A DNA stretch of 64,000 bases, taken from Malania oleifera (lineage: Eukaryota; Streptophyta; Magnoliopsida; Santalales; Ximeniaceae). Under the pieces are notes generated by a model. The model made no database searches. It was not told the origin of the DNA and saw only the letters and a program-made list of their open reading frames with translations. Of this stretch, positions 1,059 to 45,257 are shown piece by piece. Position numbers and translations under genes: made by a program. Position 1 is the first letter of the stretch. The number at the start of each line of letters is the position of its first letter. The stretch spans positions 105,837,773 through 105,901,772 of the forward strand of contig NC_080423.1 of assembly GCF_029873635.1 (NCBI RefSeq). The letters are read 5' to 3'.

Positions 1059-1974
1059 GTCACAATCCACCTGGGTCCGTGGGCACCAGGGATATATCAA
1101 AGCATAAAGTAGAAGCCTTAGCAGCAGAAAATATACAAACATGTACATCTCAATACCATATACCACAATATACTAGAGTTACTACAATCACTGTATTTTC
1201 ATATATACATTCCAAAAATAAAACCTAAGGACATTTCCCACAAAATCTAACTGTCCTTACAAAACTTACCCTTCAAAAAGGGCAGATAGACCGTACTATA
1301 TCAGCGGGGCTTTTTAGCTCTTCTATCCTGGGCTCCTGAAAAGTTAATAAAATTTAGGGGTGAGACACCTCTCAGTAAGGGAAATAAACTAATACCAGTG
1401 TGTGGCAACATGAGTATTATGTGTTCTACATATACCATACATAACATATTCAATACTGTTTATCAAATCTGGGAAAACATACATATATATCAACACATAG
1501 TAGAATATACTGCATTTTCATAAACATATCTCATCTCATACACTAATAATAACATAAAACAATCCTGGTAGGTTAGATGGCTATTGTCATGTATTACCCC
1601 CACATGACTAGGTTGTGTGGCCCGAAGGCGGGACCTGACAATGGTTGGCACTGTCAAGTCAAACAGTAGTCTGTAGGTCTGATGGGTCTACCCAGACTAG
1701 TCCGTACACCAGGGGTGATAACAGCACACTTCTTGAAAATAACCACATCGACCATCCAATCTCACACCACTCCGTACAGCGGCGTTAACACAAATATCGT
1801 GATCACGAAGATCATGGATACATAGCAACGGTACTGTGCAAGTGCTAGCCTAGACCAAGCCAACCAGGTTCTGATATCATATACATATACTAAAATCGTG
1901 ATACATGGATATCTCATATCAATAATTATCAAATCAATCATATCATTTTTCACATATACATATTTCATGAAAAT

Positions 1975-2156
1975 CATCGGCCCGTACGCCGAAATTACAT
2001 ATTTTATCATAGCTCGGCCCATACGCCGGCAAATCACATAGCACAACCCTTACGCTGGCAAATCACATAACTCGGCCTGTACGCCGACAAATCACGTAGC
2101 ACAGCCCGTACGCTGGCAAATCTCATCCGCATAGTACAGCTCGTACACCGGCAAAT

Positions 2157-2160
<4 letters not shown>
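1975..2160 (-). repeat. Minisatellite inside the LTR (CCCGTACGCCGGCAAATC units)
   Basis: About six to eight degenerate copies of a unit of roughly 35-40 bp, each with a core like CCCGTACGCYGGCAAATCAC, run into the CA/TA microsatellite. It sits between the donor-like and acceptor-like sites of the LTR. Confidence 0.8.

Positions 2161-2231
<71 letters not shown>
2157..2231. repeat. (CA)n(TA)n microsatellite
   Basis: A run of about 12 CA units passes directly into about 23 TA units. Short reading frames over it are artefacts. Confidence 0.95.
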
Positions 2232-2233
<2 letters not shown>

Positions 2234-2933
2234 CCTTGGCCCATACGCCGCTTTTCCATCATAGAAATCCATATCGTCCCCATTCTAAAAAAAAAAAACA
2301 GTATTTCACAACATTTTTATACTCATGCCACACTAAAGAAATTTTCCACGTATTCAACATATCATCATTTAAACAGTATTTTCCAAATATAAATCATATA
2401 TATAAATATATTTATTTTTCCTGAAACCAGATGCTACATATATATACATGCATTTTCTCAAAACAAAACTAGCTTAGTTTATCCCCTTACCTGATTACTG
2501 AAAAGCTCCTAAGAAAATCTTCCCCGTACCCACAAGGTTCTCAACTCAACACCCTGAAAATGAAAACTCGCAGAATTAAAGTTTAGTATTTTCGTAAGTA
2601 CAACATTTTCTATAACTACCACTAAGTCAAATTCGACTTAAAAAGTCTTACCTCAACTTAGGGATGATTCCCAACGTTCCCAATCAACACCCTGGAACTG
2701 AAAATTTCCAGTATTAAAGTTCAGTATTTTTATGCGTATATCACTTTCTTCAATTGTCAAAAATCCAAATATTAAATATAAAGCCTTACCTTGGATTTGG
2801 GATGAAATCCAACTTCGTTTCCCTGACGATCCGCTTCGGCAGACTTGTAGAGAACTTCGCCAGGAGCGTCGTGGTGGCTTCAGTTTGTTGATCCGGCATA
2901 AAACTAGCCCGGAATCGAAGAAAGAGAGAGTCG

Positions 2934-5000: not shown

Positions 5001-5309
5001 TCCTTCCTTTTTTGAAATTGCTTCCTTATTCCTACATACTTATTTGTAACCTATTGGTCTCTTCCCATTTGGAAGCTCCACCAAATTCCAAGTTTGATTC
5101 TTATGTAGTGATTCCATCTCCTCAATCATTACACCCATCTATCTACCTTTCTCCTGGCCGTGCACTGTCTCTTGAAATGTAGTTGGATTGTTGCAATTGG
5201 TAAGAAAAGTATAATATACTAACTCTTTAAATCCATACATTAGTGGTGGTCTGATAGTGTGTCTAGATCTCCGTATAAGAAGATTGTCGACTTGCTGGTA
5301 TTATGAGCT

Positions 5310-6450: not shown

Positions 6451-6689
6451 TTGAAACCATTACAATCCAAAGTGCCAAGTGAAATCAAACTCTTCCTTAA
6501 CTCCGGTATGTGTCTCACATTACTCAAGGTTCTCACAGCACTGTCAAGCATTTTTATCTTAACGTTTCCTATGCCAATGATCTTACAAGAAACAACATTA
6601 CCCATAAGAACTGAACTTAAGTTTACCAACCTGTAAGTGCTGAACCACTCCTTGTTTGGAGTCATATGGTAAGAACATGTCGAGTCAAG

Positions 6690-12240: not shown

Positions 12241-12684
12241 ACATGGACAACACTTTATATATAGCCCAAAACGGATTTTCAGCGAGGAAATTTCATTTTA
12301 TTCGTTTTTTTTTCTCTCTCTCTCTCTCTCTCTACACGGTTTCTCTCACTTCTCTCTAGGTTTCCGGCTGCGTCTCTCCTCGGTTCGACGATCAGAAGTT
12401 ACCACGGTGATCTTGGGGAGATTCTCTACAATATAGCCGAAGCAGAATGTTGATTTGAGAAATTTGGGAATCATCCCAAAATCAAGGTAAGTGGATTTTT
12501 TGGGCATTGTTAGTATTACCAAGTTTATATGAACCTAGATTTTGTATTATATGAGAATATATTGGAGTTTTGGGAAGTAAAATTAGGGTATTATATTTTT
12601 AGGAATATAGTGTTTTGAGGGCCCTAGTGGGCGATATTTCAGGAACTCAGGAAAAATGATAAATGATTAATAATCTAGAAATTG

Positions 12685-15219
12685 TGAAACGCCTCGAACC
12701 CTTAAACCCGGGTTCGGTGCATTAGACCTGATAAAATCCCTAATAAATCCATAATCAACATACGCAGCGGAAAATATCAACAAAATCTCTATATAACATA
12801 ATACTAGAGTTTACTAATTCTAACTATAATCCATAATAAATCATCCAACACCTGCATTTCCATAATTACATATATCTCCAAAACATTTCCAGTATGGTCA
12901 CAAACTTTCTTTTCTCCACAGACTTAAAATATAAGAATGTAAAACATAAATAATTGCATCCCAAAATTAACATAGAAATATACTATTTTCTTTTTCCATT
13001 TCCCAATAATGCTATAAAAACCTCGAGCTCTCTAAACTCGATCTCGAGGAAATCCTGAAGAAAAAATAATACATTTATATTCGGGTGAGACACATCTCAG
13101 TAAGGGAAGAAACAATATATTAAAACAGTGTGTGACCAACATGAGTTTATAATCAACATAATATTTAACATTTAAAAATCATTAACACAATTTTTGAAAT
13201 CATTCTCTGATCCTATTCAAACACATGCAAATGTTTAACCCACGAGATTATCCGAGGATAGGAGTGATTACGCGCCCATACAAGTAGCACCCCTCTGCTA
13301 TGATATTTAGGCAACCCAAAAGTCGCAGTTAAATCATACTAGGGCACTCACCTTACTCAATAAGCCCTCAAGTGATAAATTAATCTCGTACTCACACTGT
13401 TCAACAAAAGTTTACCGGCAAAGGCCTTAAGGATAGGGAAATTTACCTGCCCATACAAGTAGGTTCCCTCTGCCCTAGTACGTTATGTGACTACTGCCAC
13501 ATCTGAAACTATTAGTGCACTCGCCTTACTCAACAAGCTCTCAGGCGAAGAGTTCGCCTTGCCCAATCGTAACATGTTCTACGTACATATATACTTCTAA
13601 TATCATAATACATAATTCTTTTCTATCATTATACATTCATACACATTCATTCAGGTTCATAACTCAACTTTGCATTTCGTTTCACTTTAAGTGACTCTTT
13701 CCCATTTACATCATTTACCTTTGTCATTTCATTTCATTGTCATTTCATCGTCCTTTCATTGTATAACATTTCATTTCATTACTTCGTACTACAACTGGTC
13801 TTTAGCCATCATCAGTTAGTTTATGTATAAACGTGCTAGATCTGCTAACACAACTCCTTTTAGTTGTCATCAGTTAGTCTACATAGAAGTGTGCTAGATC
13901 TGCTAACATGATTGTCTTTTAGCTGTCTTACATTTACATGATTGCATTTAACATACATAGACAACATTGTCCGTATCATATTTTATTCTCATTGCTTTAC
14001 TTACTTAGCCTGCATCTCATACATTTAACATATATTTGCACAGATTCTCATGCCACACAATTTAACAGTAAAATTCATACATATTTCTCATAAAATAAGT
14101 CAACCCACATTTAACATTTATATACTCAAAATACACTTCATCTCTTATTTAATTCATTAGAAAATTCTTTTCACTTTCATTCGTTCACTTTCACATATAC
14201 ATAATTATATCGACAATTCTAAGCTCAGAAAACATAAATTTCATGGCTGACATTTTAATAATTCACACCAAAATATACATATAATATAACATAAATTATT
14301 GCCTTTAATTTCATAAAATCTGATTTAATATATAATTTCCTCTTACCTGGTTTCTTGAACTACGCCAACAGGGACTCCGAAAAAATACCTGCGGCGCTCA
14401 CCCGGATCCTGAAATTAATTTCCTAGTTCCAATAAATTATTCTTGAATAAAATATTATTTAAATATTTCCTAAGACCATAATTCCTAAATAAATAACAAT
14501 ATCCTTAAATTTAGCCGAATTCCCAAATCTCACTCTCGCTTTGGAGTAGGGCTTAGAAAATCCCAATTGATAAATTACCTACGTCAAAATGACGGTGACG
14601 ACGACTAAGACCACGTGGTGGTGTCTGATCGTCGATTTAACCGCATATTAACAGCGAAATTGAGAAAATGGGAAAAAAAATTACCTTTCCCCAGGAGCAG
14701 TGCCTAAGCCGTTCTCATAAAAAATCTGTTCCAGTAAAAATGTCGGCAGCGGAACTAGGATTCTAACGGTACCTTCCGTTTCCCGATCTGCTGCAAACTC
14801 ACCGAGAAATTGAAAGAAGGAGAGAGACGCAGACAGAGTGGCTGTGCGTGCAGGAGAAAATAAAATTGCAGAGGGGGGGGGGGGGCCCCGTGATGCGCTG
14901 TTCCAGCTCATTCTTTTTCTTTCTTCTTTCTTCTTTCTTCTTATTCTTTTAACTTTTAACTTTACTTTATCTATATATATTATAATAACTTACTTATATA
15001 TATCATTCTAATTAAAAATTTTTTTAATCCAATATAAAAAAATTTAATTTAATAACTAATTATTTAATTATTTAATTTATCTTAATTTAATTTAATTTCT
15101 TTATTTTTAATTTTTCTTCTTTTTCCCACGCCATTCTTTTTATTTATTTATCTGTTATTTTATTTATTTATTTATTTATTTTAATTATTTTAATCTTTTT
15201 AAATTTTCGGGTCTTTACA
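12685..15219 (-). mobile_element. Solo gypsy LTR (minus), innermost of the nest
   Basis: Starts TGAAACGCCTCG, ends GGGTCTTTACA, and is flanked by a perfect duplication AATTG (12680-12684 and 15220-15224). Length is 2,535 bp with no coding content. It bears the shared block in reverse (GGGTGAGACACATCTCAGTAAG, 13083-13104), an acceptor-like TTCTTCAG|G ending at 13055 and donor-like GTAAGA at 14346 and GTAATT at 14684. It is inserted in the solo LTR 11984-17022, so it is the youngest layer of that branch. Confidence 0.92.
14872..14884. repeat. G homopolymer
   Basis: A run of 13 or more G followed by CCCC, inside the solo LTR. The length of such runs is often misassembled. Confidence 0.8.
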
Positions 15220-15863
15220 AATTGTGCATATGTGGATTTGGGGAGAATATGTATGTGTTAATTATCTAGGTGAATTCAGTTGTTTGATTGGGAAGTTATA
15301 CATGTGTTATCTCCGGATGTTGAAATTATGAATGTCGCATGCGTGAGATTGTAAATAGCATTTAGTGCTCAGATAGTCAGGTAAAGGAAATATGCTATGC
15401 CAGTTAAATTAGTAATATTATCAGTAGGTTTATGTGTTTCGGGAAAGTATAGATTTCAGTACAAAGATTCTTTATTTAGTTGTGTGACATGAGTTAATAT
15501 CAGATCAGTATAGTATTTTTATAGTTTAAGATAGCATGATTTACAGTATATTAGCAGAAAATATTATTATACTAAATTTACATGAATTTCAAAATATCAT
15601 GATGTACGCTATATATATGTACATAAAAATATCTACAGATAGATAGATATTCTCAGATTTTGCAAAATCACATTTTATGGAATATATTCAGAAAAATAAA
15701 TAATACAACATTTTCAGTATACCATGATTTTCAAATTTTAGAACTATAACACTTTAGATTTTCAGTATTCAGATTACACAATACATTCAGATAAGTTATT
15801 TCATGTTATGGTTATTTCAATTATATCAGAATCATGGTAAAATAGTAATGTAGAAATATCAGT

Positions 15864-15866
<3 letters not shown>

Positions 15867-15917
<51 letters not shown>
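15867..15917. repeat. (TA)n microsatellite
   Basis: A TA run of about 25 units within the intron-like part of the plus-strand solo LTR. A second run lies at 16220-16258 in the same LTR. Confidence 0.95.
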
Positions 15918-15920
<3 letters not shown>

Positions 15921-16216
15921 TTAGACCCTACTGGATTAGATCAGTTTTAGAGCACGGTACCGTAGCTATTTTCAGTTAGAGTGCAACCACATAATTCAAA
16001 TAGTATGTGAATTTTTAGTAGTCAATCGTGCCTATGTTGTGGACAGACTTCCTTTCAGTTAGGGTTGAGGAGGCCGATCTGACTTTCGGAGTTCAGTTGA
16101 CTTATCCTGATTGGTCAGCCAGTGATAGGTCCTGCCTACGGGCCGCACAACCCTATCATGAGGGGTTAAATCATGACTTTCAGTTATCCATTCAAGGAAA
16201 TTTTCTAAGTTATTAT

Positions 16217-16260
<44 letters not shown>

Positions 16261-16700
16261 AGATTTATAGAAATCATAGATATACCTATGCATATTAGAA
16301 GTATTATAAATAGAATATTCAGAAAAACAGTTTTTGTTAAGCAACATAGGTATGAGCTATACTATGTATTAATTATGCATGTTTTCTCGGACTCAGCTAT
16401 TTGCTGTACTTCTAAATCAGATTTTACAATTATGTAAACTCATCTATCACATACTAGCAATAGCATATTTCGTCTTACTGAATGTTGTTTCATTCCAGTG
16501 ATTTAACATTTTTCAGGTGATCTAGTTAGACAAGCAGATCAGGCTTGCAGATAGAAGGGACTACAATATAGCCATGTTTGTAGGGTGAGTGTTTTTGGGA
16601 AGTCATTTTTGAGTAGGCCCTGGTCCAGGTGAGGGCATTTTGGGAATGAGAATGTATGCATATTCTAGAAAAATTCTAACACTCTGGTATTTTATATATT

Positions 16701-18102: not shown

Positions 18103-18290
18103 TCTGAAAATAGGATAAGAATAGATTAGTATTTTTATGTCATAGCACAATTAAACCAATCCTTGTAAAATAATCATGTTAACATCTAAACTCTTGGGTC
18201 CAGGCCTGCCTCACCGCATCGACATGAAATTATCAATGGCTTGCCATGGTTTTACTGAAATCATCATTCCAATAAAAAACACAGAACACC

Positions 18291-20247
18291 TGTAATAACC
18301 TAAGAAAATGTGGTACATGAGAACCTCGTCGACAAGGGAAGGTTTCGTTGACGAGAAGATGCCAAGAGGGGGTTTGGAATAGTCTGAAATTCGTCGATGA
18401 GGGGTGAAGGTTTGTCGAAGAACTTTGTTCAGGACTTATCGACGAGATGACGTGTCTTGTCGATGAACCCGAGGCTATAAATAGCAAAAACCCAGATTTT
18501 TCAGCTAAAATGGGCGCAAATCCTTTCCTCTCTCTCTCTCTCTCTTTCTAAATGTCTTCCTCTCCTTCTCTCTTCGATTCCGACTCTATTTCTTACTGGA
18601 TCGACAATCTGAGACCACCACGACGCTCCTGGGAAAGTTCTCTGCAAGCCTGTTGGAGCGGATCGTTGGTGGGAGTGGATTGAATTTCATCTCAATCTCA
18701 GGGTAAGATGTTTTATTCAGATTTTGCCTTTCCTATAGTTATATAAAATGTTGTACGTAGAAAAATAATGATATTTTATTCTGGGAGATGTTATTTTCAA
18801 GATTTTGAGTAGGGAACCCTGCGGGAGTAGGACTAGACTGAGTAAGGGGCTTTCGCAGAAATCAAGTAAGGGAAATATGCTATGCTAGGAGTTTTCAAAA
18901 TATTAATAGAATTTTCATAGAAACATGTATATACCGATTTATTATATAGTTTTATAGAATAAGGGTATTTAATGGTTGTGTGGCCCGAGTAGACATTTAT
19001 TTGATATAGAATTTATACAACTTTTTCTAGCATATTATATTGCACAGTATAATAAAAAAATTAAACGGATCAGTACAAGTAGATATTTATTCAGATCAGT
19101 ATATTTTACAGATATTTATCCAGATTAGTAAATACAATATTTCACAGTATGCCATGTTTCCTAATACCATAATACTCAGTTTACACAGACAGTTTATACA
19201 GACAGTTTATGCAAACATAATATACAGTTATAGCATTAAGATGCTACAAATATGTTGTTCAGATATTACAGTAATTATAGTAGAAAATTATAATGTTATG
19301 GTTACTTTGGAAACATGATAAAAACAACAAAGATAATTATAGTATATATATATATATATATAGTATCAGATCCCTGATGAGGTATTACAGATAGATACAG
19401 TTACAGAGCACGGTACTGTTGCTATATAAAGAATAGAGTGCAACCACATATCTTAGATAGTGTGTAGGTACTGTCAAATCGTGCTCAGAGAGGATGGCGC
19501 TCCCCAGTTTGGGTTGAGGGGGCCGGTTTGACGAGGTAGCAATTCCAGTTTCGTGCTTAGGAGTGGATGTAGTTTGGCCGGACTGAGGTAGTGTAGAGTA
19601 CAGTGACTTACCTAGTAGGCCAGCCAGAGTTAAGTCCCGCTTACGGGCCGCACAACCCTGTCATGAGGGGTCAAATCATGACATACAGATTTCCAGGGAA
19701 AAATCATAGTTATATATATATAGTATGATATTAGCAATAAGAAAGAAAGTTCAGATGATACAGTTATATTTTAAGTTACGATAAACGTAAAATATATTTT
19801 TACTGATTTGTCAGCTTTATAGTTTCAAATGTTAATATTATTGATATGCAACTTGGTCACCACACACTAGTAATAGCATATTTCCACTTACTGAGCGTCG
19901 ACTCACCCTATTATTATTATATTTTTCAGGTGAATTAGTTAGGCGAGCTGAGCTGGCTCGCAGATAGAAAGAGACCCCTTTTATTGCCCTGTATATAGGG
20001 TAAGTTTTTATTGGATGTTGAGTTTTGGGTAGAGAGGACTTGTATGTGTAATTATGATGTGGGTAAAATTACTGGGTTTTGGTATTGTATATATATTTGT
20101 GGTTATGTGATTTATGTTTTTCCGCTGCTTAGGTGTGCCCACTATTTACAGAAGTATTTCAGTGCCTAGCTGAGACATGTGAGACTATAACAAGGATATT
20201 AAAATAATATATCTGTAAAAAAAATGGAGAAATTTTAGGTCATTGCA
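18291..20247 (+). repeat. 5' LTR of the plus-strand Tekay element
   Basis: 1,957 bp. Order of parts: CGTCGACG-type palindromes (18327-18470), TATA box CTATAAATAG (18475-18484), CT-rich start, donor-like CAGG|GTAAGA at 18703, the TA run (19343-19362), the GGGCCGCACAACCC block (19645), the CTTACTGAG and CTCACCC boxes (19888-19908) and the acceptor-like TTTTTCAG ending at 19929. Confidence 0.95.
18327..18470 (+). promoter_or_regulatory. CGTCGACG-type palindrome cluster and LTR promoter
   Basis: Six degenerate TCGTCGACGA copies spaced 20-45 bp apart, followed directly by CTATAAATAG at 18475. A GAGAAGATGCCAAGAGGGGG box lies between copies. The partner LTR has the same cluster with two additional copies (25291-25480). 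Confidence 0.6.
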
Positions 20248-20251
20248 TTTG

Positions 20252-20265
20252 TGGTATCAGAGCCT
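20252..20265 (+). other. Primer-binding site (initiator Met-tRNA)
   Basis: TGGTATCAGAGCCT, complementary to the 3' end of plant initiator Met-tRNA, lies 4 bp inside the 5' LTR. Confidence 0.9.
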
Positions 20266-20574
20266 AGGTTCCTAGGTTCTGTAGACTCTAGAGTGCAGCG
20301 GAAAACAATACCAGAATATAGGAAAATGATTTAAAGTTTGTTCTGTGGTCTAGATATAGGATTTTCGTGGTGGTTTCTGTATTTTTCCTAGAGTGACGAT
20401 TTCAGGAAAGTCATGATAAATTACTGACGAGTCGTGTGTTTAGGTTGCAAAATTGGATTTTGGGCCAGAAATAGGGGTGATAATTAATAGAGAATTTAAG
20501 GTTTTCGTTGAATAAGATAAATTATATCTGTATGGGAAATAGGATTTCGAAACGGTATTTGATGTAATTGCAGG

Positions 20575-21540
20575 ATGGATCCAGGGGGTAGTAGCGTTCA
20601 CGCTAGGGGGGACAATGGTGCTGGACCTTCAGACGCAGGAGGTGCAAATTCAGATGCTGTGCTACGCAGTATGGCTCAACAAGTCATGACTGAGATAACG
20701 CGTAGCTCTAGAGAGCAGAGAAGTCCATCTCTAATTCAGGGATATACCATAGAGAAATTTATGAAGATGAACCCACCACCATTCTCTAGAGCAACTGACC
20801 CTGCAGTTGTAGAGAATTGGATGCAGGAAGTGGAGAAGATCTTGACAGTACTTCACTGCATGGATGAGCAGAGAATTCTGTACGCTACGTATAGATTGAC
20901 AAGGGAGGCTGAGAGATGGTTGACGACCACTAGACTATTGGAAGAGTATAGGACGACTCCAGTGCCGATGACTTGGGCCTGTTTCAAGGATATATTTTTC
21001 GATAGATACTATCCTGTCTCAGTTAGAGAGGCTCGAGTGTAGGAGTTTCTGAGCTTATCCTAGGGATCCTTGACCGTCCAGCAGTACGCGGCTTGATTTA
21101 TCGAGGTCTTGTGTTTTTACCAGTATATTGTTCCCGATAAAGTAAAGAAGGCTAGAATGTTCGAGAGAAATTTGAGGCGAGATATTATAGGCATGTGGCA
21201 GTACTGAGGATCCAAGATTTTGCAGAATTGGTAGATAGGGCCATTATAGTAGAGGAGAGTCTACCGAGGGAGAATGAAATATAGAGTCAGAAGAAGAGGA
21301 CTACACCCTTAAGTTTTCAGGCGGGTCCCAGTCGAGGTCCTTGGAGAGGAGATAAATCTAGCAGCAGTCAGAGGCAGATGGCAGAGCATAAAGGATTTTA
21401 GGGTGGACAATCTCCTACCACTTGTCTTAGATGTGGACGAAGACACCCAGGTGAGTGCCGGCTGGGGGAGAATGTCTATTATCGCTGCGGGAAACTTGGC
21501 CATATAGCTCGATCGTATCGGATGCCATCGAATTATGTAC
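20575..21540 (+). pseudogene. gypsy gag region
   Basis: Starts MDPGGSSVHARGDNG at 20575. It continues with FMKMNPPPFSRATDPAVVEN, then WMQEVEKILTVLHCMDEQ and the MTWACFKDIFFDRYYP segment of plant gypsy gag. Zinc-knuckle sequence (CLRCGRRHPGEC and YYRCGKLGHIA) lies near 21421-21510. Fossil. Confidence 0.85.
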
Positions 21541-21639
21541 CGGCTCCCAGACCATTTCGAGGTGGATACCAGGCGCCCTGCAGAGGTCAGCAGAGGAATA
21601 CTGTGCTGGCGAGGGTCTATGCGTTGACGTTGAGACGGC

Positions 21640-22800
21640 TGGAGACGTGGTCACAGGTACTTATTGTTTTATTTGATACATGTGTCACTCACTCCTTTAT
21701 ATTGGCGGGATATGTGAGAATAACTGGGGTAGAAACACAGCTATTAAATGTAAAACTATCTGTGGGTACGCCAATGGGATCTGTAGTAAGATGCAGGAAA
21801 GTGCTTCAAAATTTTCTAGTAAGAATTCAGGAGAGAGTACTACTAGCTGATCTCGTAGTCCTAGTTATGCAGGGGTTTGATATGATACTGGGTATGGACT
21901 GGCTAGCGACTCATCATGCCAATATTGATTGCCATCAGAGAGAAGTGATTTTCAGACCCCCGGATGAGCAAGAATATAGATTTGTGGGATCATATGTACG
22001 TGCCTCACCACAGCTGGTGCCGGCTATTCAGGTGAGGAGGCTGCTACAGGGTGGTTGCTAGGGGTATGTCGCATACATAAAAGATTTTCCAAAAGAAGAA
22101 CTAAAACAAGTTGATATACCCGTGGTGAGAGAATTTCTAGATGTCTTTCTGGAAGAATTGTCTGGCTTGTCACCAGACCAAGAGATCGAGTTTACTGTAG
22201 ATCTGTTGCCGGGGTCAACACCGGTATCTAAAGCACCATACTATATCGCTCCAGTTGAGTTGAAAGAATTGAAAGAATAATTACAGGAATTGCTGGATAA
22301 AGAATCAGGCCCAGTGTGTCGCCTTGGGGAACGTCAGTTCTGTTCGTGAAAAAGAAGGATGGGACCATGAGGTTGTATATCGATTATAGGAAGATAAATA
22401 AACTGAAAGTTAAGAATAAATATTCTCTCCCTAGGATCGATGATTTTGATCAGCTCCAGGGGACCCAGGTTTACTCTAAAATTGACTTGCGGTCGGGTTA
22501 TCACCAGGTGAAAGTAAAAGCAGAAGATATTTCGAAGACAACATTCCGAACCAGATATGGGCATTACGAGTTCTTAGTGTGCCATTTGGGTTGACTAATG
22601 CACCAACAGTATTTATGGATTTAATGAATCGGGTGTTCCATCAATATTTGGACCAGTTTATGGTTGTGTTTATTGATGATATACTGGTCTACTCAAGAAG
22701 TTTTGAGGAGCACGAGCATCACTTGAGGCTGGTGTTACAAATATTGAGAGAAAAGAAATTATATGCAAAATTAAAGAAATGTGAGTCCTAGTTAAGGCAA
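21640..22800 (+). pseudogene. gypsy protease and first part of reverse transcriptase
   Basis: The protease area reads VLFDTCVTHSFIL and DMILGMDWLATHHANIDC. The RT reads [44 protein letters not shown] and the active-site segment [19 protein letters not shown]. Fossil of the plus-strand element. Confidence 0.88.
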
Positions 22801-23480
22801 GTTACTTTTCTCGGCCATGTGATCTCTGAAGTAGGTATATCAGTTGATCCAAGTAAAATAGAGAAAGTGGTAAATTGGGAAAGGCTAGACAGTTCTCAGG
22901 AGGTCAGGAGTTTTCTGGGATTAGCGGACTATTACCGGCGTTTCGTAGATGGCTTCTCTAGATTGTCAAGTCCATTAACATGACTTACGAGAAAAAAATA
23001 TGAAGTTTGATTGGACCGTTGATTGTGAGCAGAGTTTTCAGGAGTTAAAATGACGGCTAGTTTTAGCTCCGATATTAGTTATTCCATCAGGGGAGGACAT
23101 GTTTGTAATATACAGTGACACCTCTTTGAAGGGTCTTAGATGTGTGTTGATGCAACACGACAAGGTTATTGCGTATGCGTCTAGATAGCTTAAAGAGTAT
23201 GAGAAGAACTATCACGTGCATGATTTGGAGTTAGCTGCTGTGGTTTATGCTCTTAAGATCTGGAGGCATTATTTATATAGTGGGAAGCGCGAGATTTTCA
23301 CGGATCACAAAAGTCTGAAATATTTCTTTACCTAGAAAGAACTAAATATGAGACAAAGAAGGTGGCTAAAACTCATTAAAAATTATGACTGCACCATTAG
23401 TTACCACACAGGAAAAGCGAATGTGGTAGTTGATGCTCTGAGTAGGAAATCCGTGGGACCAACATTGGCAGCCGTGGAGA
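22801..23480 (+). pseudogene. gypsy RT connection and RNase H region
   Basis: Translations in the area show [19 protein letters not shown] and [17 protein letters not shown] of the RT end. They also show the RNase H segments [12 protein letters not shown] and KLIKNYDCTISYHTGKANVV. Fossil. Confidence 0.8.
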
Positions 23481-23759
23481 TTTAGAACCTAATTTTGATG
23501 GATTTGGAAAGGCTTGACATAGAATTAGTGGAGGATAGTCCTCAGGCATTTATTGCCAGTCTGGTGGTACAACCTGCACTATATGAGAAAATTAAGACAT
23601 TTCAAGGTGATGACGCAGAATTGGCAGAGGTGATGGCTAGAGTGCGGGATGGTTAGGGAGAGGAGTTCAACATATCAGATGACGAAGCCTTACGGTTCCG
23701 TACTAGGCTATGTGTTCCTATAGATACTGAGATCAGGAGAACTATATTGGAGGAGGCTC

Positions 23760-25013: not shown

Positions 25014-25100
25014 CAGTAATCAGGTAAAATGTAAGTAATTGGGTAATGTTTCTTTTGCAGGTACATGTATTGATTTAATTAGTAGGTAGTTTTTAGTTTC

Positions 25101-25170
25101 ATATGTGTAATCTCCCAAAGTTTAGAATGTAACCACGGTATTCCTCCGCCATAAGTGAGGGTAAGTAATA
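25101..25170 (+). repeat. Sequence shared with LINE tails (TGTAATCTCCCAA ... CATAAGTGAGG)
   Basis: GTGTAATCTCCCAAAG, then AATGTAACCACGGTATTCCT and CGCCATAAGTGAGGG, lie between the pol region and the purine tract. The same string of words occurs at 9555-9615 (reverse), 38255-38330 (reverse, weaker), 46820-46900 (plus, LINE) and 55035-55125 (reverse, LINE). Confidence 0.85.
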
Positions 25171-25257
25171 AAATAAGTAGACCATTTATCTCTTGGGATG
25201 ATAGATTATATGGATGATGTTCAATACAAATAGTAAATTTTGAGGACAAAATTTTAT

Positions 25258-25270
25258 AAGGAGGGGAGAA
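25258..25270 (+). other. Polypurine tract
   Basis: AAGGAGGGGAGAA lies directly before the TG of the 3' LTR. Confidence 0.9.
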
Positions 25271-26341
25271 TGTAATAACCCAAGAAAATATTAAGGGCTT
25301 CGTCGATGAATATAGGGGATTCGTCGACGAGTATACATGAGAACCTCGTCGACGAGGGAAGGTTTCGTCGACGAGAAGATGCTAAGAGGGGGTTTGGAAT
25401 AGTCTAAAATTCTTTGATGAGGGGTGAAGGTTTGTTGACAAACTTTGTTCAGGACTCGTCGACGAGATGACGTGTCTCATCGATGAACCCGGGGCTATAA
25501 ATAGAAAAAACCCAAATTTTTCAGCTAAAATGGGCACAAATTCTTTCCTCTCTTTCTCTAAACGTCTCCCTCTCCTCCTCTCTTTGATTCCGACTCTGTT
25601 TCTTGCCGGATCGACAATCTAAGACCACCACGAAGCTCTTGGGAAAGTTCTCTACAAGCCTGCCGGAGCGGATCGTCGGTGGGAGTGGATTGAATTTCAT
25701 CCCAATCTCAAGGTAAGACGTTTTATTCAAATTTGTCTTTCCCATAGTTATATAAAATGTTGTACGTAGAAAAATAATGATATTTTATTTTGAAAGATGT
25801 TTTCAGGATTTTGAGTAGGGAACCCTATGGGAGTAGGACTAGGCTTAGTAAGGGCCCCAGAAATCAAGTAAGGGAAATACGCTATGCTATGAGTTTTCAA
25901 AATGTTAATAGAAATTTCATAGAAACATATACATGCCATTTTATTATATAGTTTTATAGAATAAGGGAATTTAATGGTTGTGTGGCGTGAGTAGACATTT
26001 ATTTGATATAGAATTTATACAGCTTTTTCCAGCATATTATGTTGCACAGTATAATCAGAAAATTATACAAATCAGTACATGTAGATATTTATTCAGATCA
26101 ATATATTTTACAGATATTTATCCAGATTGGTATATACAGTATTTCACAATATGCCATGTTTCCTAATACCATAACACTTAGTTTACACAGATAGTTTATA
26201 CAGTCAGTTTATACAGATAGAATATACAGTTATAACATTAAGATGCTACAGATATGTTGTTTAGATATTACAGTAATTACAGTACAGAATTATAATGTCA
26301 TGGTTACTTTGGAAACATGATAAAAACAACAAAGATAATTA

Positions 26342-26397
<56 letters not shown>

Positions 26398-26748
26398 GTA
26401 GTATCAGATCCCTGATGAGGTATTACAGATAGATACAGTTACAGAGTACGGTACCGTTGCTATATACATAATAGAGTGCAACCACATATCTTAGATAGTG
26501 TGTGGGTACTGTCAAATTGTGTTAGGAGAGGATGACGCTCCCAAGTTTGGGTTGAGGGGGCCAGTTTGACAAGGTAGCTGTATTAGTTCCGTGCTTTGGA
26601 GTGGATGTAGTTTGGCCGGACTGAGGTAGTGTAGAGTACAGTGACTTACCTGGTAGGCCAACCAGAGTTAAGTCCCGCCTATGGGTCGCATAACCCTATC
26701 ATAAGGGGTCAAATCATGACATACAGATTTCTAGGAAAAAAATCATAG

Positions 26749-26809
<61 letters not shown>

Positions 26810-27369
26810 GAATACAGTTTTTACAACATTTGATATATATAGTATGATATTAGCAGTAAGAAAGATATTAAGTTTAGATGATATACTTATATTTTAAGTT
26901 ATGATAAATGTAAAATATATTTTTACTGATTTGTCAGTTTTATAGTTTCAAATGTTAATATTATTGATATGCAACTTGGTCGCCACACACTTGTAATAGC
27001 ATATTTCCACTTACTGAGCGTCGACTCACTCTATTATTCTAATATTTTTCAGGTGAACCAGTTAGGCGAGCTGAGCAAGCTAGCAGATAGAAAGAGACCC
27101 CTTTTATTGCCTTGTATATAGGGTAAGTTTTTGTTGGATATTGTGTTTTGGGTAGAGGGGACTTGTATGTGTAATTATGATGTGGGTAAAACTATTGGGT
27201 TCTGGTATTGTACATATATTTGTGGTTATGTGATTTATGTTTTTCCACTGCTTAGGTGTGCCCACTATTTACAGAAGTACTTCAGTGCCTAGCTGAGGCC
27301 TGTGAGACTATAGCAAGGATATTAAAATAATATATCTATAAAAAAATGGAGAAATTTTGGGTCGTTACA
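25271..27369 (+). repeat. 3' LTR of the plus-strand Tekay element
   Basis: 2,099 bp, the partner of 18291-20247. It is longer mainly because two TA microsatellites grew (26343-26396 and 26751-26806). TATA box CTATAAATAG at 25495, donor-like AAG|GTAAGA at 25713 and acceptor-like TTTTTCAG|G ending at 27052. Confidence 0.95.
26343..26806. repeat. Two expanded (TA)n microsatellites in the 3' LTR
   Basis: Runs at 26343-26396 and 26751-26806 correspond to much shorter runs at 19343-19362 and 19711-19722 in the 5' LTR. They have expanded since insertion. Confidence 0.9.
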
Positions 27370-27374
27370 ACACC

Positions 27375-27532: not shown

Positions 27533-29262
27533 TGTCACGCCCCGAACCCTGAAAGTGGGCCCTAGGGTGTGATATGAGAACCTAACCTGTATTTGTATCA
27601 TACAAACATCCATGATACTAATAAACATGAGGGTCCAACTCAATAGGGCTCGCGGATACCCTGCTAACAATCATTATTCACATGAATAACACAGCGGAAC
27701 ATATTTCAACCTATTACATTCATTCATACCAAAGTACTAAGTCTGTCATAATACAAAATATCAACCCAAGGTATCCAACATAATCCAAAAATGACACAAC
27801 AGTACTTACAAAAACTAACAAAATACTACACTCCAAAACCCTCTAGAACGCTAGGTCCGGCTACTTGAAGGACCTGAAACAAATTTGTATGATTGGTGAG
27901 ACACTTCTTAGTAAGGGAGAATTAGGTTATATTAATGTGTGGGCATATGAGTGTTATTCCAATAAAAAACAAAGCATTTCACATTTCCAGTATTTTCACA
28001 AATAGTTCTAGTATATTTCACAATCATCGGTATAATCTGAAAAATCGGCATGTCATTATTGACCCATCGTATTGAATCGGTATTCCACAACCCTCGATAT
28101 TATCTGGAAAACCGGCATGTCATTATTGACCCCACGGCATTGAATCGACGTTTTAGTAACCATAATCCGGCAAACTGGCATGTCATTATTGATCCACGGT
28201 ATTGAATCGGTATTCCACAACCCTCGATATTATCCGGCAAACCGGCATGTCATTATTGACCCCACGATATTGAACCGATACAAATCTAGTGTTTTTACAC
28301 TCTTCGGCATAAATTGGAAATTTATGACCATTAGTATTAACCCGGCATGTCTTACGACCCCACAGTATTAATCCAGAATGTCTCGACCCCACGGAATCAA
28401 ACCAGCATGTCATTATTGACCCCACGGTAATGAAACTGGTATGTCAGTAACCACAATTCCTGAAAACAGTTTGGAACTCCAGTTCCTATATTTCATTTCA
28501 AACACATCACAACTCAATCATCACAAAATATCCTCTCCTACCACACCTATTTGGATAATTAAACAATCATATGATAATTGATCCAAAAATACAGTTTAAC
28601 AAAGAATAAAGGTACGGTCATCTCTGTAAATAAATGATTTTCCAAAAGAAACGGAGACGATACTCGAAACCCTAATTTCCTCGAAAACCACACACCTAAA
28701 AAATTGGCAATCTCACCTGGTGAAATTTTCCAAACAAGTAACCAAAACATCCGTATAAACATAACCTACAGTTCTACCGAATCAGATTTTAAAAATAATT
28801 GATATAAACAAATCCCCTTACCTGTTCCCAAATACCGAAACATGACTCCAAATGGCTCGAAACAGTCACACGGATTCCCAAATCCTAAAACTGAAAGACC
28901 ATACGTCAATATCACCCTATTTAATACAGATCTACAAGTCACTAGACTCGTTTCGACCCTTACCTCAACTTTGGGGTAAAAACCCGAAAATCCTCAAATC
29001 GAGATTCTACTCTGTAGGAATTGTAGAGATTCACCCGCTAATCCACGTAGTAATGTTGGATCGTTAATTTGGGCAACAAGCCGCTCGAAATCTTAGAGAG
29101 AGAGAAAGAGAGTGAATTCGCAGTTGAGAGAGAGAGAGAGAGAGAGTTATATAATAAACATAACTTAACCCTTAAGTAATCTAAAAATATCTCCTCCAAG
29201 ATATTTATATATAAATATCTAAAAATATCTCCTTCAAGATATTTTTTTTTTGGGTTACTACA
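27533..29262 (-). repeat. 5' LTR of the minus-strand Tekay element
   Basis: 1,730 bp, TGTCACGCCCC ... GGTTACTACA, with target duplication ATATA outside. In reverse reading a TATATAAC box lies at 29144-29155. Next come a CT tract, donor-like GAG|GTAAGG at 28963 and CAG|GTAAGG at 28821, the minisatellite (28045-28440), the CTCACC/CTTACTAAG block (27895-27917) and a good acceptor-like TTTCAG|G ending at 27874. Confidence 0.93.
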
Positions 29263-39055: not shown

Positions 39056-39753
39056 TGTCTTGTTAACGAAGGCCGCAGTATAAAAGTGGAAAACCCGAAT
39101 TTTTAACCATTTTTTAACGCTCCTCTCTCTCTCTCTCTCTACGATCTTCTCTCACTTCTCCCTTCGTTTCCGGGCCTATTTCTCGCCGGATCGAAGATCT
39201 GAGGCTACCACGACGCTCCTGGTGAAGTTCTTTGCAAGTCTGCCGGAACTGATCGTTGGAAAAGTTGGGTCGGATTTCGTCCCAATTTTAGGGTAAGACA
39301 TTTTATTTAGTATTTGTCTTTTCCTCAGTTATAAGAAATGTTGTAGGTAAGAAAATACTGATGTTTTGTTCTGAGGGATTTTGTTTTCAGGATGTTGAGT
39401 TAGGAATCCTGCGGGTATAGAGTCAGAATGTAAGAACCCGAACCGTGATATATGGGCTTATTTTGTAAAAGAGGGGTAAAAGTGGAAATTGTATAGATTT
39501 CGTCGACGAGGCCACAATTCGTTGACAAAGCTAGTGAAGAACACATCGACGAAATTCAGAGGGTCGTCGACGAGTAAATGCCGAGGGGTTTAGGAAAATT
39601 TAAATATCAGGATTCGTCGACGAAATTGCTGCCTCGTCGACGAAATATCTGAAGACTTCATCGACGAAGACACCAATTTGTCGACGAAGCCTCTCGGGTC
39701 AAAGGTCTTTATAAGGATATTTTAGTTTCCTTCTTGGCTAAGTTATGAAAATC

Positions 39754-39795
<42 letters not shown>

Positions 39796-40520
39796 GATTG
39801 CTTCGTCATTTGTCGCTTGAATCGCAAATCCAAAGTTACTGCGAGGATCAGTGAAGGATTCTTTACGTTTCTAGCGGATCGGAATCTCGGTCTGAGCGAT
39901 TTCGGGTTTCGGGCTATAATCGAGGTAAGGCTCAATTTCCATTTCTAATTCGGTATATGTGTAGTAGTACGGATTGTAAGTATGTATTGTACTGTGGCTT
40001 GTAGATTTCGGAGTCTCGGTTCATAGTTTTGAGGACTGTAGAGTTTGTAGTTAGATTTCGGGTTAATGTAAGGGGATTCTGTTTATATCAGTTCATTTTC
40101 GAAATCAGGATCAGTAAGCTTGCAGGCTACGATCATATGTATGTTTTGGTTACTTATTTAGGGAAATCTATCGGGTAAAAATGCGAGATTTTTGGGTTAC
40201 AATTTTTGAGAAAATTGGAGATTTCGGGTATCATCTCTACTTTGTTTGGAAAACCGCTTGTCTTGTTTAAACTGTATTATTGAGGTGACTGTAATCCATA
40301 TTTGCATAAACTGTATACTTGAAATTGTAAATGATATGATTTGTCGTAAACCAAATAAATGTGGTATGTATGATTGTATAAAATTGTTCCAGGTATTTGT
40401 AAAACAGCTATGTGGCGGCAAATTACCGTAGACTGAAATGTATAGGAACGTGAGTTCCAAAATGTTCCAGGGATTTGTAAACTGCCAGGTATCAGGTAGT
40501 TACCATGGGCAAGAGTGGCT

Positions 40521-40532
40521 TGTGATGACCCA

Positions 40533-40566
<34 letters not shown>

Positions 40567-43041
40567 TAAAGTACAATAATAATAAAATAATAAAAATAGT
40601 CATTAAGTTAATATCAATACAGAAGTGTTTTTCTGCAGGATCCTTGATTCCATGTTTGATGCCTAAGAAAGATCTTGTCTTAGCGAGTGCTCAGAGACCA
40701 TTGCGGCTCAGTCACTCCCTGGAGGTCGGCCTGATCAAAATGGAATTTCATAGGATAAACAGGATGGACACTGTTTGTACACGTAAATAAGTATATATAC
40801 ATGAAATAGTGTTTTGACAAACATAATTTGTAGAAATACATAATAAGATGATAATAATATAGGTATCATATGTGGGGCCCACAAGACTATGTGGGGTCCA
40901 CATGAGTCCCGGAGCCACAAGACACTGTTTATATACGTAAATAAGTACATAAGATAATATTTTAACTGATATAATTTGAAGAAATATATGATAAAATAAT
41001 AATAATATAGGTATCTTATGCGGGGCCCACAAGACTGTGTGGGGCCCACATGAGTCCCGAAGCTGTATGGAGGTTTACACAAGTCTCAAAGCTATGTAGG
41101 ATGCATAAAATCGTATAAGAGTTATTCGAATTATGTAGGATCCATTCGCGTCTCGAAGTTGTGTGGGGCCCACAAGACCGTGTGGGGTCCACATGAGTTT
41201 TCAAAATTCAAATTTAATTCTTATTCAAAAATAAATAATAAAATAAATAAATACTAAAAATGGTTCAAAATTAATAACAATGATAATAATAATGATAATA
41301 ATGATTAAGAAAAATAATAAAATAATTAATTAACTAATTGATTAATTAATTAGGTAAGTGATTAATTAAAAATTTATTTAATGGGAATGGTGGCAAGCAC
41401 TCCCACATGGCCTCCATTCCCATCCTATACTCAACCCATACCTTGCCCATTCCTTGCCCATTCTTTAATTTTTAAAAATTATAATTTCACCCATCTCCCC
41501 ACACTTTTATAAATTTTATTTCTTCCCCAAAATTTCCTATAAATAGGGAGCTCTCAACCTTCATTTTTCACAACAATTTTTCAAGGAAGAGAAGGATTAG
41601 TGAGTGAAAGAATTTGTGGTGGAGAGAGAATTTTAAGTAAGTTCTCACTCACCCACTCTTTCCGATCTCATTGCTTAAAGATAGTTTTTGTGTTCGTAAC
41701 ACACGGTAAAAGAAGAAGGTAAGTAAAATTTGATTATGTTAGTTTTTTTTTTTATTTAAAATTTATACCCAAGTTTATTTTATAAGTAAATTTCAATTAT
41801 GTTAATTAGTTCCACAAAATTTCCATGAATTTATTTTTACGCGTATTTAATTATACCAGTTCTATCTTTAATATACTTGCATCTATTTTTGGGTTAAGAA
41901 ATGTTCTAATCCCCTCGGGTAAATTTTCAGCATTTCTTTCTATTCAAAAATAAAATTATATATATTTTTAACACAAAAATTATGTGGCATGAGTTTATTT
42001 CTACATTACAATTTTATGTAAATATGAGAAAAGATGAGATTTTTACGATATTATTTTAAATTACATAAATTATAATAAGATGATTTTAAAACCCCTTATG
42101 GCAACGAAAGTTCAAAGTTACAGATACTCGGTACCGCAGCTTAAAATTTATACGGATCAGAGTGCACCCACACTGTTTACAGAGTGGTTATTTATGTTAG
42201 TGGATTTCTCCTGAGTGCACACCTGGTTCCGGACTAGGACTTAATAAGGAAAATCTCACTTAAAGTTTACGTACGTTGATTTAGTTTGGTCGACCAGCCA
42301 GCTAAGTCCAGTCTTCGGACCGCACAACCCAGTCATGGGGGTAAACATGACTTACGGCAAACAGACCTAAGGGTGGTTTTTATAATATATGTTTATACAT
42401 ATTTAATTACGTGTACAAAGTTACTGATGATTTGAAGGAAAAGTGTAAGTTTACGTGAAAATGATCATTTTGGTGCTTAAATGACGATCTAAGGAAAACG
42501 TATAAGGAAAAGTATATGTATGTTTATCATTAAATATTTTTACAGTTTTAAAATTAAAAGTTTAATTTAGCAGTTATAGTATATGATTGTAAAAATTTAC
42601 TGTTGAAATTGATGACAAAAGTTTTATGCAGAAATTTTTAAATCTATATTTATTCTAAAAGCAGTCTTGAAGTTATAGTATTAAATATTATTTTATGAAA
42701 TTCTTTAAAAGCTCATTTTGGCCACACACTAATAATAATCTTATTTACTTACTGAGCATCGTCTCACTCCAATCATATTTTTATTTCAGATAACTCTGAA
42801 GAGCATGTTGGAAATCAGGCTTAGCAAGCATACGGGTGGGGATAGAAAATTAAAGATTGATTAGAAATATTAGTATGGTTTCAGATATTTATGTTTGTGT
42901 AATTTTTCTTCTTTTGAAATAAATGATTGTAATATGGATAATTAGTGCTTTGGTTTAATAAAAATTGAGTTTATTTTGCTTACGCTGTAAATCAGTAGTA
43001 AAAAGTTAATATCCCAGGCCCCTAGGGGTCGGGGTGTTACA
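40521..43041 (+). mobile_element. Solo gypsy LTR (plus), innermost of the triple nest
   Basis: TGTGATGACCC ... GGGGTGTTACA with perfect duplication TGGCT (40516-40520 and 43042-43046). 2,521 bp, no genes. TATA box CCTATAAATAGG near 41538, donor-like AAG|GTAAGT at 41719, a CGCACAACCCAGTCATGGGG block near 42320, CTTACTGAGCATCGTCTCAC near 42747 and acceptor-like TTATTTCAG ending at 42789. It lacks the CGTCGACG cluster and instead has GTGGGGYCCACA repeats upstream. Confidence 0.92.
40767..41205 (+). repeat. Tandem units with palindromic GTGGGGYCCACA words
   Basis: Two full units of about 145-155 bp (from 40767 and from 40922) and one partial unit (41158-41205). Each ends with GGGGCCCACAAGAC and TGTGGGGTCCACATGAGT. 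They sit upstream of the TATA box of this LTR, the place where other LTRs here carry CGTCGACG clusters. Confidence 0.85.
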
Positions 43042-45257
43042 TGGCTGGCTCTATATCTGGGGTGTGAAATATCACCAGTATGTTTCGGCTGGTCACCGAA
43101 GGTGTGCTCTACATCGTATGTAGCAATTGATTCACTATTAGGCCTTGATCGTCGTAGCATAGTTGCGTATGAAGCAATGTAATCGCTGCGAGACGAGGTG
43201 ACCTTGTGTAGTTGCAAATTAGTGTGATGACATTGACCGTATGTATGTATGTACGTATGTATTTGGGTATTGTATGAATTGGAATGGTTTTTGTGAAAAT
43301 ACTGGAACTGTATGGAAATGTATGAAACTGATATAACCTATTTTCTCCCTTACTGAGAGGCGTCTTACCCCGAATATATATAAATATTTTTTAGGTCCTT
43401 CGGGTAGCCAAAACTAGCATCCGGAAGCGAGGGGTGTTATTTAGCTATTGCTAGTACATGTTAGGTATGAGTTTTGGTATCCAGGTTGTCGGGATGATTT
43501 TTGTAGACACCTGGGGTATGTTTTGTATATGGGAAGGTATATCCTAACTTGTATAGACTCTGGTATGACACTGGTTATGTATAAAAGACCGTATTCCGCT
43601 GCATATTTTGATGAGTATGGACATATGTATGTATGTATTTAGGGCATTCGTTCACCCCACGGGGTCGGACCCTCTTTGTTTGTGGTATCATGTATGTTTT
43701 AATTGATAGAGAGACAGATTAGGTTACTAAATTCACACCTGGGACACTTGCGGGTTTGGGGCGTGACACAGAATTTTGTAGGGGCTTTTCAGAGTAAAGG
43801 TAAGGGAAATATGCTATACTAGGAATTTTAATAAAGTTAACAGAGATTTCATAGACATATATTTATACAAGTCTATCATACAGTATTTACAGAATATGAG
43901 TTTAAATGCTTGTGTGGTTTGAGAAGATTTTCATGTGACGAAGAAATTTATGTAACTTTTATAATGTATCATACTATACTGAATATACAGATATTGACAG
44001 TATATACAGTTTATATAGTTTTTCTAGTATATGGGATTACACATAATATATAGATATATATTTATATTCATAGAGAGTACACGGAGAAATGTACATGCAT
44101 ATACAGCTTTTATATGAATAGTTTCATGAAATAGATATATACATATATACATATACATGCATACAGTTTTACTCATATCAGTATTTATATTACAGCTTTA
44201 TACAGAGTTATAACATGCCATGTTTCCTATTACCATAACATATAGAGTATACAGACAGAGTATATAGATAGAGATACAAATAGATATATATAGAGATAGC
44301 ATCAAGATGCTATATATACTGTACATAGAGATTACAGTATTTATAGTACAGAAAGATAGCGTTATGGTAATTTTGGAAACATGATGAAAACAGTAAAAGA
44401 GTATATATGTATATATGTATATAGTATCAGATCCTTGTGGAAAGATTACAGATAGATATAGTACAGATATAGTTACAGACCACGGTACCATTACTATATA
44501 CAGATAGAGTGCAACCACATATCTCAGATAGTGTGTGGGCATCGTCAACCATGCTCGGAGAGGTTGCAGCTACTTAGTTCACTGGGTAGAGCGGGCCGGT
44601 TTTGACGATGTAGTAGCCAGGCCCGAACCTAGGAGTGGATGCAGTTTGGTCGGGCTGAGGTAGTGTAGAGTATATTGACTTATCTAGGGGGCCGACCAGA
44701 TGAAGTCCCGCCTACGGGCCGCACAACCCTGTCATGAGGGGTCAAATCATGACGTATAGAGTCACAGGGATAAAGCACAGTTATGTATATGTATACAGTT
44801 TTACAGTATATGATGAGTATAGTATGATATTATTAGTATGAAAAGTAGAAAATACAGACGATACAGTATATTTTAAATTGAGAAAAAAAGATATGCTTTA
44901 CAGATTATTTGTTGCCTTACAGTTCAGTTATTATTTAAAAGTATCTTTAACTTAGTTCTCACACACTAGTAATAGTATATTTCCACTTACTGAGCGTCGA
45001 CTCACCCCATTACTTTAACATTTTTTAGGTGAGCCAGTTAGGCGAGCAGATCAGGCTCGCGGATAGAGAGTGTTTGAATCACCCTGGTTATAGGGTGAGT
45101 TTTTTGACAGAGTTGAATATATTTTTGAGTAGATGATGGTGGAAGGGTATTTTTGTATGGCTATGGTCTGTATACACTGGATTCTGGTATTGTATATACA
45201 TGTACATGTGGATATGTGATTTATGTTCCCGCTGCTTCGGTATGGATGAAGATATAC

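Follow-up and report, generated by a model that had tools for sequence, protein, structure and literature searches.

The 64,000-nt stretch of NC_080423.1 (105,837,773-105,901,772) from Malania oleifera analysed here (the window; the genome comprises 1.49 Gb) contains LTRs of several retrotransposon families with similar splice-site-like motifs, which raises the question of whether these LTRs carry introns and, if so, what splicing would mean for elements whose repeats are rebuilt in every cycle. The preliminary description had proposed a short exon 1 and one large intron, with gag in exon 2.

The element F1 (Table 1) has the layout of an LTR retrotransposon: two LTRs, a TSD, a primer binding site after the 5' LTR and a purine tract before the 3' LTR. 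Pfam finds RVP_2 (E = 1.2e-27) and SH3_Tf2-1 (E = 1.9e-26) among its protein domains, and since gypsy-type protease and integrase C-terminal domains are present, F1 is assigned to Ty3/gypsy; a match to Ty3_capsid (E = 0.0028) lies under the Pfam cut-off. The group of elements that carries the leader described below is one of abundant Ty3/gypsy retrotransposons. No Pfam chromodomain was found in F1 up to E = 5; the integrase ends in GPFEILERVG...RIHDVFHVTLLRKYVPDPSH, which is followed by a tail that looks chromodomain-like by eye. This integrase end, the long LTRs and the primer binding site (TGGTATCAGAGC) are presumably like those of the Tekay/Del chromoviruses. F1 with its TSDs (18286-27374) is nested in F3, whose leader it interrupts about 160 nt downstream of the primer binding site.

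Table 1. Features of the F1 and F3 elements and of other LTRs in the window, with putative exons and introns.
Feature	Coordinates	Strand	Remarks
F1 element	18291-27369	+	LTR lengths 1957 and 2099 nt; flanked by TSD ACACC
F1 5' LTR	18291..20247	+	Ends TGTAATAACC...GGTCATTGCA; TSD ACACC at 18286-18290
F1 TATA box	18475..18484	+	CTATAAATAG
F1 exon 1	18530..18702	+	Putative start at CT-rich stretch; from composition and exon 1 profile
F1 intron 1a	18703..18800	+	98 nt; GTAAG...TTTTCAG in most copies, acceptor TTTTCAA in window copy; absent in L089-L096
F1 exon 1b	18801..18865	+	65 nt; from composition and 16-sequence alignment
F1 intron 1b	18866..19929	+	1,064 nt; GTAAGG...TTTTTCAG; ends in the box of the preliminary description
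F1 intron 1b, conserved 3' end	19861..19929	+	CACACACT at 19861-19868; CTTAC at 19887-19891; possible hairpin at 19892-19905; T-rich stretch; CAG
F1 exon 2	19930..19999	+	70 nt; GC-rich, ATG-poor
F1 intron 2	20000..20132	+	133 nt; GTAAGT...GCTGCTTAG
F1 exon 3 (less certain)	20133..20247	+	Runs to LTR end; 2 ATG in window copy
F1 primer binding site	20252..20263	+	TGGTATCAGAGC
F1 acceptor-like site	20559..20573	+	TTGATGTAATTGCAG, directly before GATGG; gag ATG at 20575
F1 3' LTR	25271..27369	+	TSD ACACC after 27369; purine-rich AAGGAGGGGAGAA just before 25271
F3 5' LTR	27533..29262	-	TGTAGTAACCC...GGCGTGACA; F3 spans 29262-7725, 3' LTR end at 7725; TSD TATAT
F3 intron 1a	28885..28963	-	79 nt; 1 ATG
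F3 exon 1b	28822..28884	-	63 nt; 1 ATG
F3 intron 1b	27874..28821	-	948 nt; 27 ATG
F3 exon 2	27810..27873	-	64 nt; no ATG
F3 intron 2	27661..27809	-	149 nt; 8 ATG
LTR of other family	1336..2789	-	Donor 2789 to acceptor 1336, 1454 nt; exon 2 next, at 1270-1335
LTR of another family	13055..14346	-	Exon 1b 14347-14408; intron 1b 14346-13055
LTR of another family	12487..16516	+	Donor 12487, acceptor 16516; putative pairing, other DNA probably nested between
Other LTRs	39293..45028	+	Donors 39293, 39925, 41719; acceptors 42789, 43394, 45028; nested, putative pairing

The motifs that gave rise to the proposal are present in the window. All 13 acceptor boxes listed earlier contain CTTACT, followed by one of TGAG, TGAA, TAAG and TAAA; after that comes CTCACC or one of its variants (CTCACT, CTTACC, TTCATC and TTCATT among them). 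The acceptors finish in AG at the position claimed in 13 of 13 cases, with two departures in detail: 8087 reads CAAG, and the base after 260 is A, not G. The nine donors are GTAAG without exception. The donor at 14346 is a second donor, at the end of exon 1b, and not the homologue of 18703; the donor at 41719 shows no clear alignment to the others. The claimed distance from TATA box to donor agrees with F1, whose TATA box at 18475 is 228 nt ahead of the donor at 18703. The sites do lie within LTRs: donor and acceptor occur in both LTRs of F1, and the acceptors at 27874 and 8087 are in the two LTRs of the minus-strand element F3.

The same motifs are abundant in the genome. The pattern CACACACT-N10..26-CTTACT-N22..44-TTTCAGG has 10,934 + 11,080 = 22,014 exact matches (reversed control, 0 + 0), and an F1-group donor pattern with up to two mismatches has 6,661 (control, 0). 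Twenty box loci, the first listed on contig C1 in map order, were chosen without regard to the donor. AGGTAAG lies upstream in 14 of them, against a dinucleotide-shuffle expectation of 0.137 per locus and 1 of 20 in the reversed-sequence control; six of the 20 have two such sites, spaced 143-162 nt apart in five and 295 nt in one. An exon 1 profile built without the donor letters and run on the same loci matches 14 (one weakly, E = 0.03, and two over part of the model). By raw counts, a GT lies at most 2 nt from the predicted end of exon 1 in 12 of these 14 matches, with AT in the other two, and GTAAG or GTGAG stands at the exon end in ten.

In the F1 LTR these sites define more than a single intron (Table 1). 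The succession of a short exon 1, one large intron and gag in exon 2 does not describe it, as there is an extra exon (1b) within the supposed intron, a further intron (intron 2) and an acceptor-like site before the gag ATG. An acceptor-like TTTTCAG|G is found about 60-70 nt before the second donor in most rows of the 16-sequence alignment behind exon 1b, in which most sequences were selected by their first donor. The second acceptor of F1, TTCCGCTGCTTAG|G, is still inside the LTR. TTGCAG|GATGG stands at the start of gag in F1 and in most F1 copies, and its F3 counterpart is CTATTTTCAG|AATGGAG; a donor for the putative intron ending at the gag ATG was looked for and not found.

The LTR introns display U2-type features, namely a GT donor, an AG acceptor and a branch-point-like motif at a plausible distance. 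Judged by the plant branch-point consensus and the usual distance from branch point to acceptor, CTTAC, which had been said to fit a branch-point motif, is a candidate, with the A at 19890 as the branching base. The distance from the candidate A to the AG is 36-49 nt, with a mode of 39, in 93 distinct strings taken from about 100 listed places among the 22,014 box matches. A possible hairpin (TGAGN-4 nt-NCTCA, 19892-19905) is situated between the candidate branch point and the acceptor and might regulate splicing.

Base composition follows the same borders. In the F1 group, exons 1, 1b and 2 have more GC and fewer ATGs than the introns: their GC contents are 0.488, 0.493 and 0.480, compared with 0.265, 0.319 and 0.329 for introns 1a, 1b and 2. 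Per 100 nt, the exons contain 0.69, 0.30 and 0.32 ATGs (dinucleotide shuffles 0.96, 0.74 and 1.50) and the introns 2.78, 2.53 and 5.20 (shuffles 1.96, 2.10 and 3.99), with intron 2 measured on 20000-20133. Exon 1, in 48 copies, is thus only slightly depleted of ATG relative to its own shuffles. Exon 3 has a GC content of 0.349 and 0.40 ATGs per 100 nt versus 2.38 in shuffles (20134-20215, 28 copies). These values come from 28-51 F1-group copies depending on the part, which share ancestry and are hence non-independent. The copies belonging to the window element (L009, L010, L039 and L040) were left out here as well as from the conservation and pattern-tolerance counts and the tree rows given below. 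An ATG-poor spliced leader is what would be expected if the spliced form is the translated one.

The exon-intron layout recurs across different families (Table 1). In F3 and two other families, each measured exon 1, 1b or 2 contains 0 or 1 ATG, and each intron 1b (or whole intron 1) or intron 2 contains 6-69 where measured. The exon 3 region of F3 has 4 ATG in 120 nt, and the contrast in GC between exons and introns is weaker in F3 than in the F1 group. A GTAAGT or GTGAGT donor follows exon 2 in several families.

If spliced RNA is copied, LTRs that lack an intron at its exact ends should be found in the genome. Such LTRs exist for intron 1a. Every junction search used exon ends taken from the F1 group and close relatives only. 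A search for the exon 1|exon 1b junction gave ten matches (control, 0), of which six read as intron losses and four as unspliced acceptors. A second search, which allowed 0-30 leftover bases, gave 11 (control, 0): seven direct junctions, five of them already known, two shortened introns and two unrelated matches. The four look-alikes, the shortened introns and the unrelated matches were judged from the matched strings only. The two shortened introns, at G000:C3:42977045 and G000:C11:39217105, keep 21 and 14 nt of intron 1a with GTAAG and TTTTCAG intact, and are either decayed copies or very short introns.

Together, the searches identify eight loci, L089-L096, in which intron 1a is absent at its splice ends. 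The first six contain other indels of up to 66 nt but otherwise align along almost the whole LTR. The aligner places the gap at exactly 18703-18800 in L089, L091 and L093; in L090 and L092 the gap is shifted and measures 83 and 82 nt, and in L094 it is split into 44 + 45 nt, but the sequences of these three loci pass straight from exon 1 to exon 1b. The same direct passage is read from the sequences of L095 and L096, which stem from the second search. Read by eye, four of the loci are solo LTRs: L092 and L094, flanked by perfect TSDs (CAGGG and ATATT), and L089 and L090, whose TSDs have one mismatch. L093 is a 5' LTR with a primer binding site. L097, located 5 kb from it and preceded by a purine-rich stretch, is taken as its 3' LTR by distance and orientation. 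Both lack intron 1a at the same point, and 1108 of 1240 aligned positions are identical in this element, the only one checked. Because the 5' end of one RNA is the source of both LTRs, as is established for retroviruses, an intron spliced out there would be lost from both; an older loss inherited through transposition would look the same in the two LTRs.

The losses probably do not trace back to a single ancestor. A first tree, made from 79 LTR parts taken without intron 1a, requires four changes for the loss, and its well-supported branches force at least three; a more careful tree of 74 rows agrees, with a bootstrap range of 4-5. Three rows were left out of the first tree and five further long rows out of the second. 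These change counts do not separate loss from regain by recombination. A single clade of all eight loci is rejected (p-AU 1.4e-45). So is a clade of the six without L095 and L096 (p-AU 1.5e-170), whereas one of L089, L091, L092 and L094 is rejected at p-AU 0.0365 only; the latter two groups were named after the first tree had been seen, and the four loci may represent one event. The intron-bearing row nearest to L095 and L096 is L076, which, for exon 1b and the rest of the LTR, lies in a different family from the other six. Eight losses at splice ends that need four changes, at least three of them forced, point to reverse transcription of spliced RNA on more than one occasion.

No such copies were found for the other introns. 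Four genome patterns for retrocopies without intron 1b or intron 2, covering the F1 group and near relatives, gave 0 matches each. These patterns accept the exon ends of 16/44, 36/44, 25/45 and 24/42 known copies, compared with 32/48 for the exon 1|exon 1b pattern, so that their tolerance is comparable except for the stricter one (16/44). A looser junction pattern returned 889 matches, none with 0 mismatches, and was set aside: the approximately 100 matches listed are, to judge from their letters, unspliced acceptors (TTTTCAG|GTGAG, for example) that fall within the permitted mismatches. Of the junction 18702|19930, named in the preliminary description as one to be sought, the searches found no retrocopy in the genome, whereas 18702|18801 has such copies. 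One intron running from 18703 to 19929 was rejected as a full account: it would contain exon 1b, and no copies with the corresponding direct junction turned up in the same searches. Since no retrocopy without intron 1b was found, splicing at the 19929 box rests on sequence features. Either replication fails for RNA lacking intron 1b or 2, or the splicing of these introns is less than their signals suggest. We prefer the first view, given that over half of the LTR consists of intron 1b and that joining exon 2 to the gag acceptor would also remove the primer binding site.

Could the missing intron 1a be the product of ordinary DNA deletion at short repeats by the intron ends? Many copies do have a direct repeat there (TCAGG at the end of exon 1, TTCAG|G at the end of the intron), two other copies have shortened introns, and L096, which is one base shorter, is compatible with both readings. 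Slippage between the repeats would, however, leave one G fewer, and L089, L091 and L093, whose exon 1 ends in TCAGG, retain the full number. Six of the seven direct junctions of the gap search show the spacing of splicing, L096 being the exception. A one-base microhomology could yield the splicing product but would have to do so repeatedly, and there is no other related deletion in the searched range apart from the two shortened introns. We therefore regard deletion as very unlikely. That only intron 1a is real, with the 19929 box an acceptor in appearance only or one that is rarely used, would account for retrocopies being found for this intron and not for introns 1b and 2. We nevertheless consider it unlikely: exon 2 has high GC and few ATGs and lies between an acceptor and a GTAAGT donor, the box has been kept in 22,014 places, and RNA without intron 1b may simply fail to replicate.

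Another reading dispenses with splicing and ascribes the conserved sites to a promoter, a poly(A) signal, a packaging element or a structured RNA. With the branch point and acceptor of ordinary plant introns as the yardstick, and with L009, L039 and L040 left out, the block CACACACT...CTTACTGAG..CTCACC looks longer and more conserved than they are. The possible hairpin speaks for the same reading, as the bases of its fifth pair change together between families, being A-T, C-G or T-A (pairing in 29 of 42 distinct boxes, versus 17.9 in shuffles), but this co-variation has few independent changes behind it, and changes in the other four pairs, which are nearly invariant, resemble C-to-T decay. 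Such a cause leaves unexplained the loss of 18703-18800 at the splice ends in eight loci, the alternation of GC and ATG content at the exon-intron borders and the donors in 14 of 20 loci that were not selected for donors, and in our judgement is highly improbable. Conservation at the splice sites gives a mixed answer. The preliminary description had suggested asking whether GT and AG evolve no slower than their neighbours; in the one family compared, the dinucleotides are no clear outliers, and the GTAAG pentamers stand above the pentamer median. The splice-site dinucleotides are intact in 0.78-0.90 of copies, against LTR medians of 0.78 for GT and 0.81 for AG, with acceptor 1b slightly below the AG median; in intron 2, GT is intact in 46/51 copies and AG in 44/50. 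The three GTAAG pentamers are intact in 39/49, 34/48 and 42/51 copies (0.80, 0.71 and 0.82), where the pentamer median is 0.53 and the 90th percentile is 0.80. This comparison is a weak one because most copies are probably dead and decay neutrally.

We favour splicing, with the losses of intron 1a as the strongest evidence, and consider it very probable that the LTR holds, downstream of its promoter, a multi-exon non-coding leader with GT-AG introns, the spliced mRNA presumably being translated and unspliced or partly spliced RNA being copied. The earlier idea of an LTR intron is retained insofar as GT-AG introns lie in the transcribed part of the LTR and intron 1a was lost at its splice ends in eight loci; it is not, however, one intron. 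The leader would be spliced by host spliceosomes. Splicing would remove about 30 upstream ATGs from the mRNA and perhaps connect its leader to the acceptor next to the gag ATG, and this mRNA would be translated. Unspliced or partly spliced RNA would serve as the genome for copying, because the 5' end of the RNA is the template for new LTRs. Loss of intron 1a alone would apparently leave an RNA that can still be copied. Transcripts without intron 1b or 2 may be barred from replication, as the searches found no copies of them. A bolder version, for which we see equal grounds for acceptance and doubt, is that a conserved multi-intron leader inside the LTR characterizes a dominant LTR group of this genome, that splicing rather than a separate promoter sorts RNA for translation from RNA for copying, that intron-less LTRs are fossils of partly spliced genomes, and that intron 1b holds a replication signal. 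With mostly unspliced RNA being copied, the LTR would keep its introns from one round to the next, and the signal in intron 1b would explain why copies without this intron were not found.

Retroviruses provide a partial parallel. In HTLV-1 and foamy viruses, the major splice donor is located in the R region of the LTR, so that the first exon is in the LTR, and the acceptors are in the internal region; a major splice donor is marked on foamy virus RNA in an excerpt of the published material. The Malania elements are similar in having the first exon and a donor in the transcribed part of the LTR, and differ in that whole introns, with donor and acceptor and at least three in number, lie in the LTR. 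Among plant elements, EVADE reportedly has an intron in its coding region. Passages of a 2025 review describe plant LTR elements as generally lacking introns, with Ogre of legumes and EVADE of Arabidopsis as notable exceptions (PMC12786077), and the Ogre intron is placed between gag-pro and rt-rh-int in a passage of PMC6317226. Neither passage places an intron inside an LTR. The elements described here share with Ogre and EVADE, as portrayed there, the presence of introns in a plant LTR retrotransposon, but carry them inside the LTR.

A close precedent is BARE1 of barley, a Ty1/copia element whose RNA is partly spliced and divided into separate pools for translation and replication (Chang et al. 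2013, PMC3735527). BARE1 has one intron of 104 nt at the end of gag, and its spliced RNA encodes Gag alone (PMC3735527). In Malania, too, retrotransposon RNA would be spliced in part, as judged from DNA. The differences from BARE1 are the placement of the introns, which sit in the non-coding leader within the LTR of a Ty3/gypsy element, and the copies that partly spliced RNA seems to have left in the genome. No LTR intron is described for the Tekay/Del clade in the relevant passages of PMC6317226, neither 'intron' nor 'splic' appears in the main text of PMC3059260, and excerpts of two sunflower papers (PMC7730604, PMC12844716) deal with splicing of other kinds. Excerpts from the open PubMed Central literature contained no report of an intron inside a plant LTR. 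Retroelements that use splicing are known; new would be a splicing retroelement with introns inside the repeat that is rebuilt every cycle.

Intron signals are present inside the LTR in thousands of copies, and one such intron is missing at its exact ends in eight loci. Intron-less LTRs allow the splicing of copied RNA to be recognized in DNA by itself. Should splicing govern the life cycle of these elements, it would bear on how RNA is divided between translation and copying in plant retrotransposons and on the nuclear export of unspliced RNA in plants. It would also bear on chimeric transcripts near genes, since a promoter, a first exon and strong donors would come with every LTR. In gene annotation, solo LTRs could pass for first exons of non-coding RNAs.

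The window holds three further features of a different kind. Ty1/copia-type domains (RVT_2, SH3_retrovirus and Pol_BBD) are found beside these LTRs at 4414-6923 on the minus strand. A GHMP kinase C-terminal domain at 47511-48116, also on the minus strand, scores above the Pfam cut-off (E = 1.3e-05) and possibly belongs to a host gene or a fragment of one. An inverted pair of 1.28 kb with 84% identity is formed by 45670-46936 and 55013-56270.
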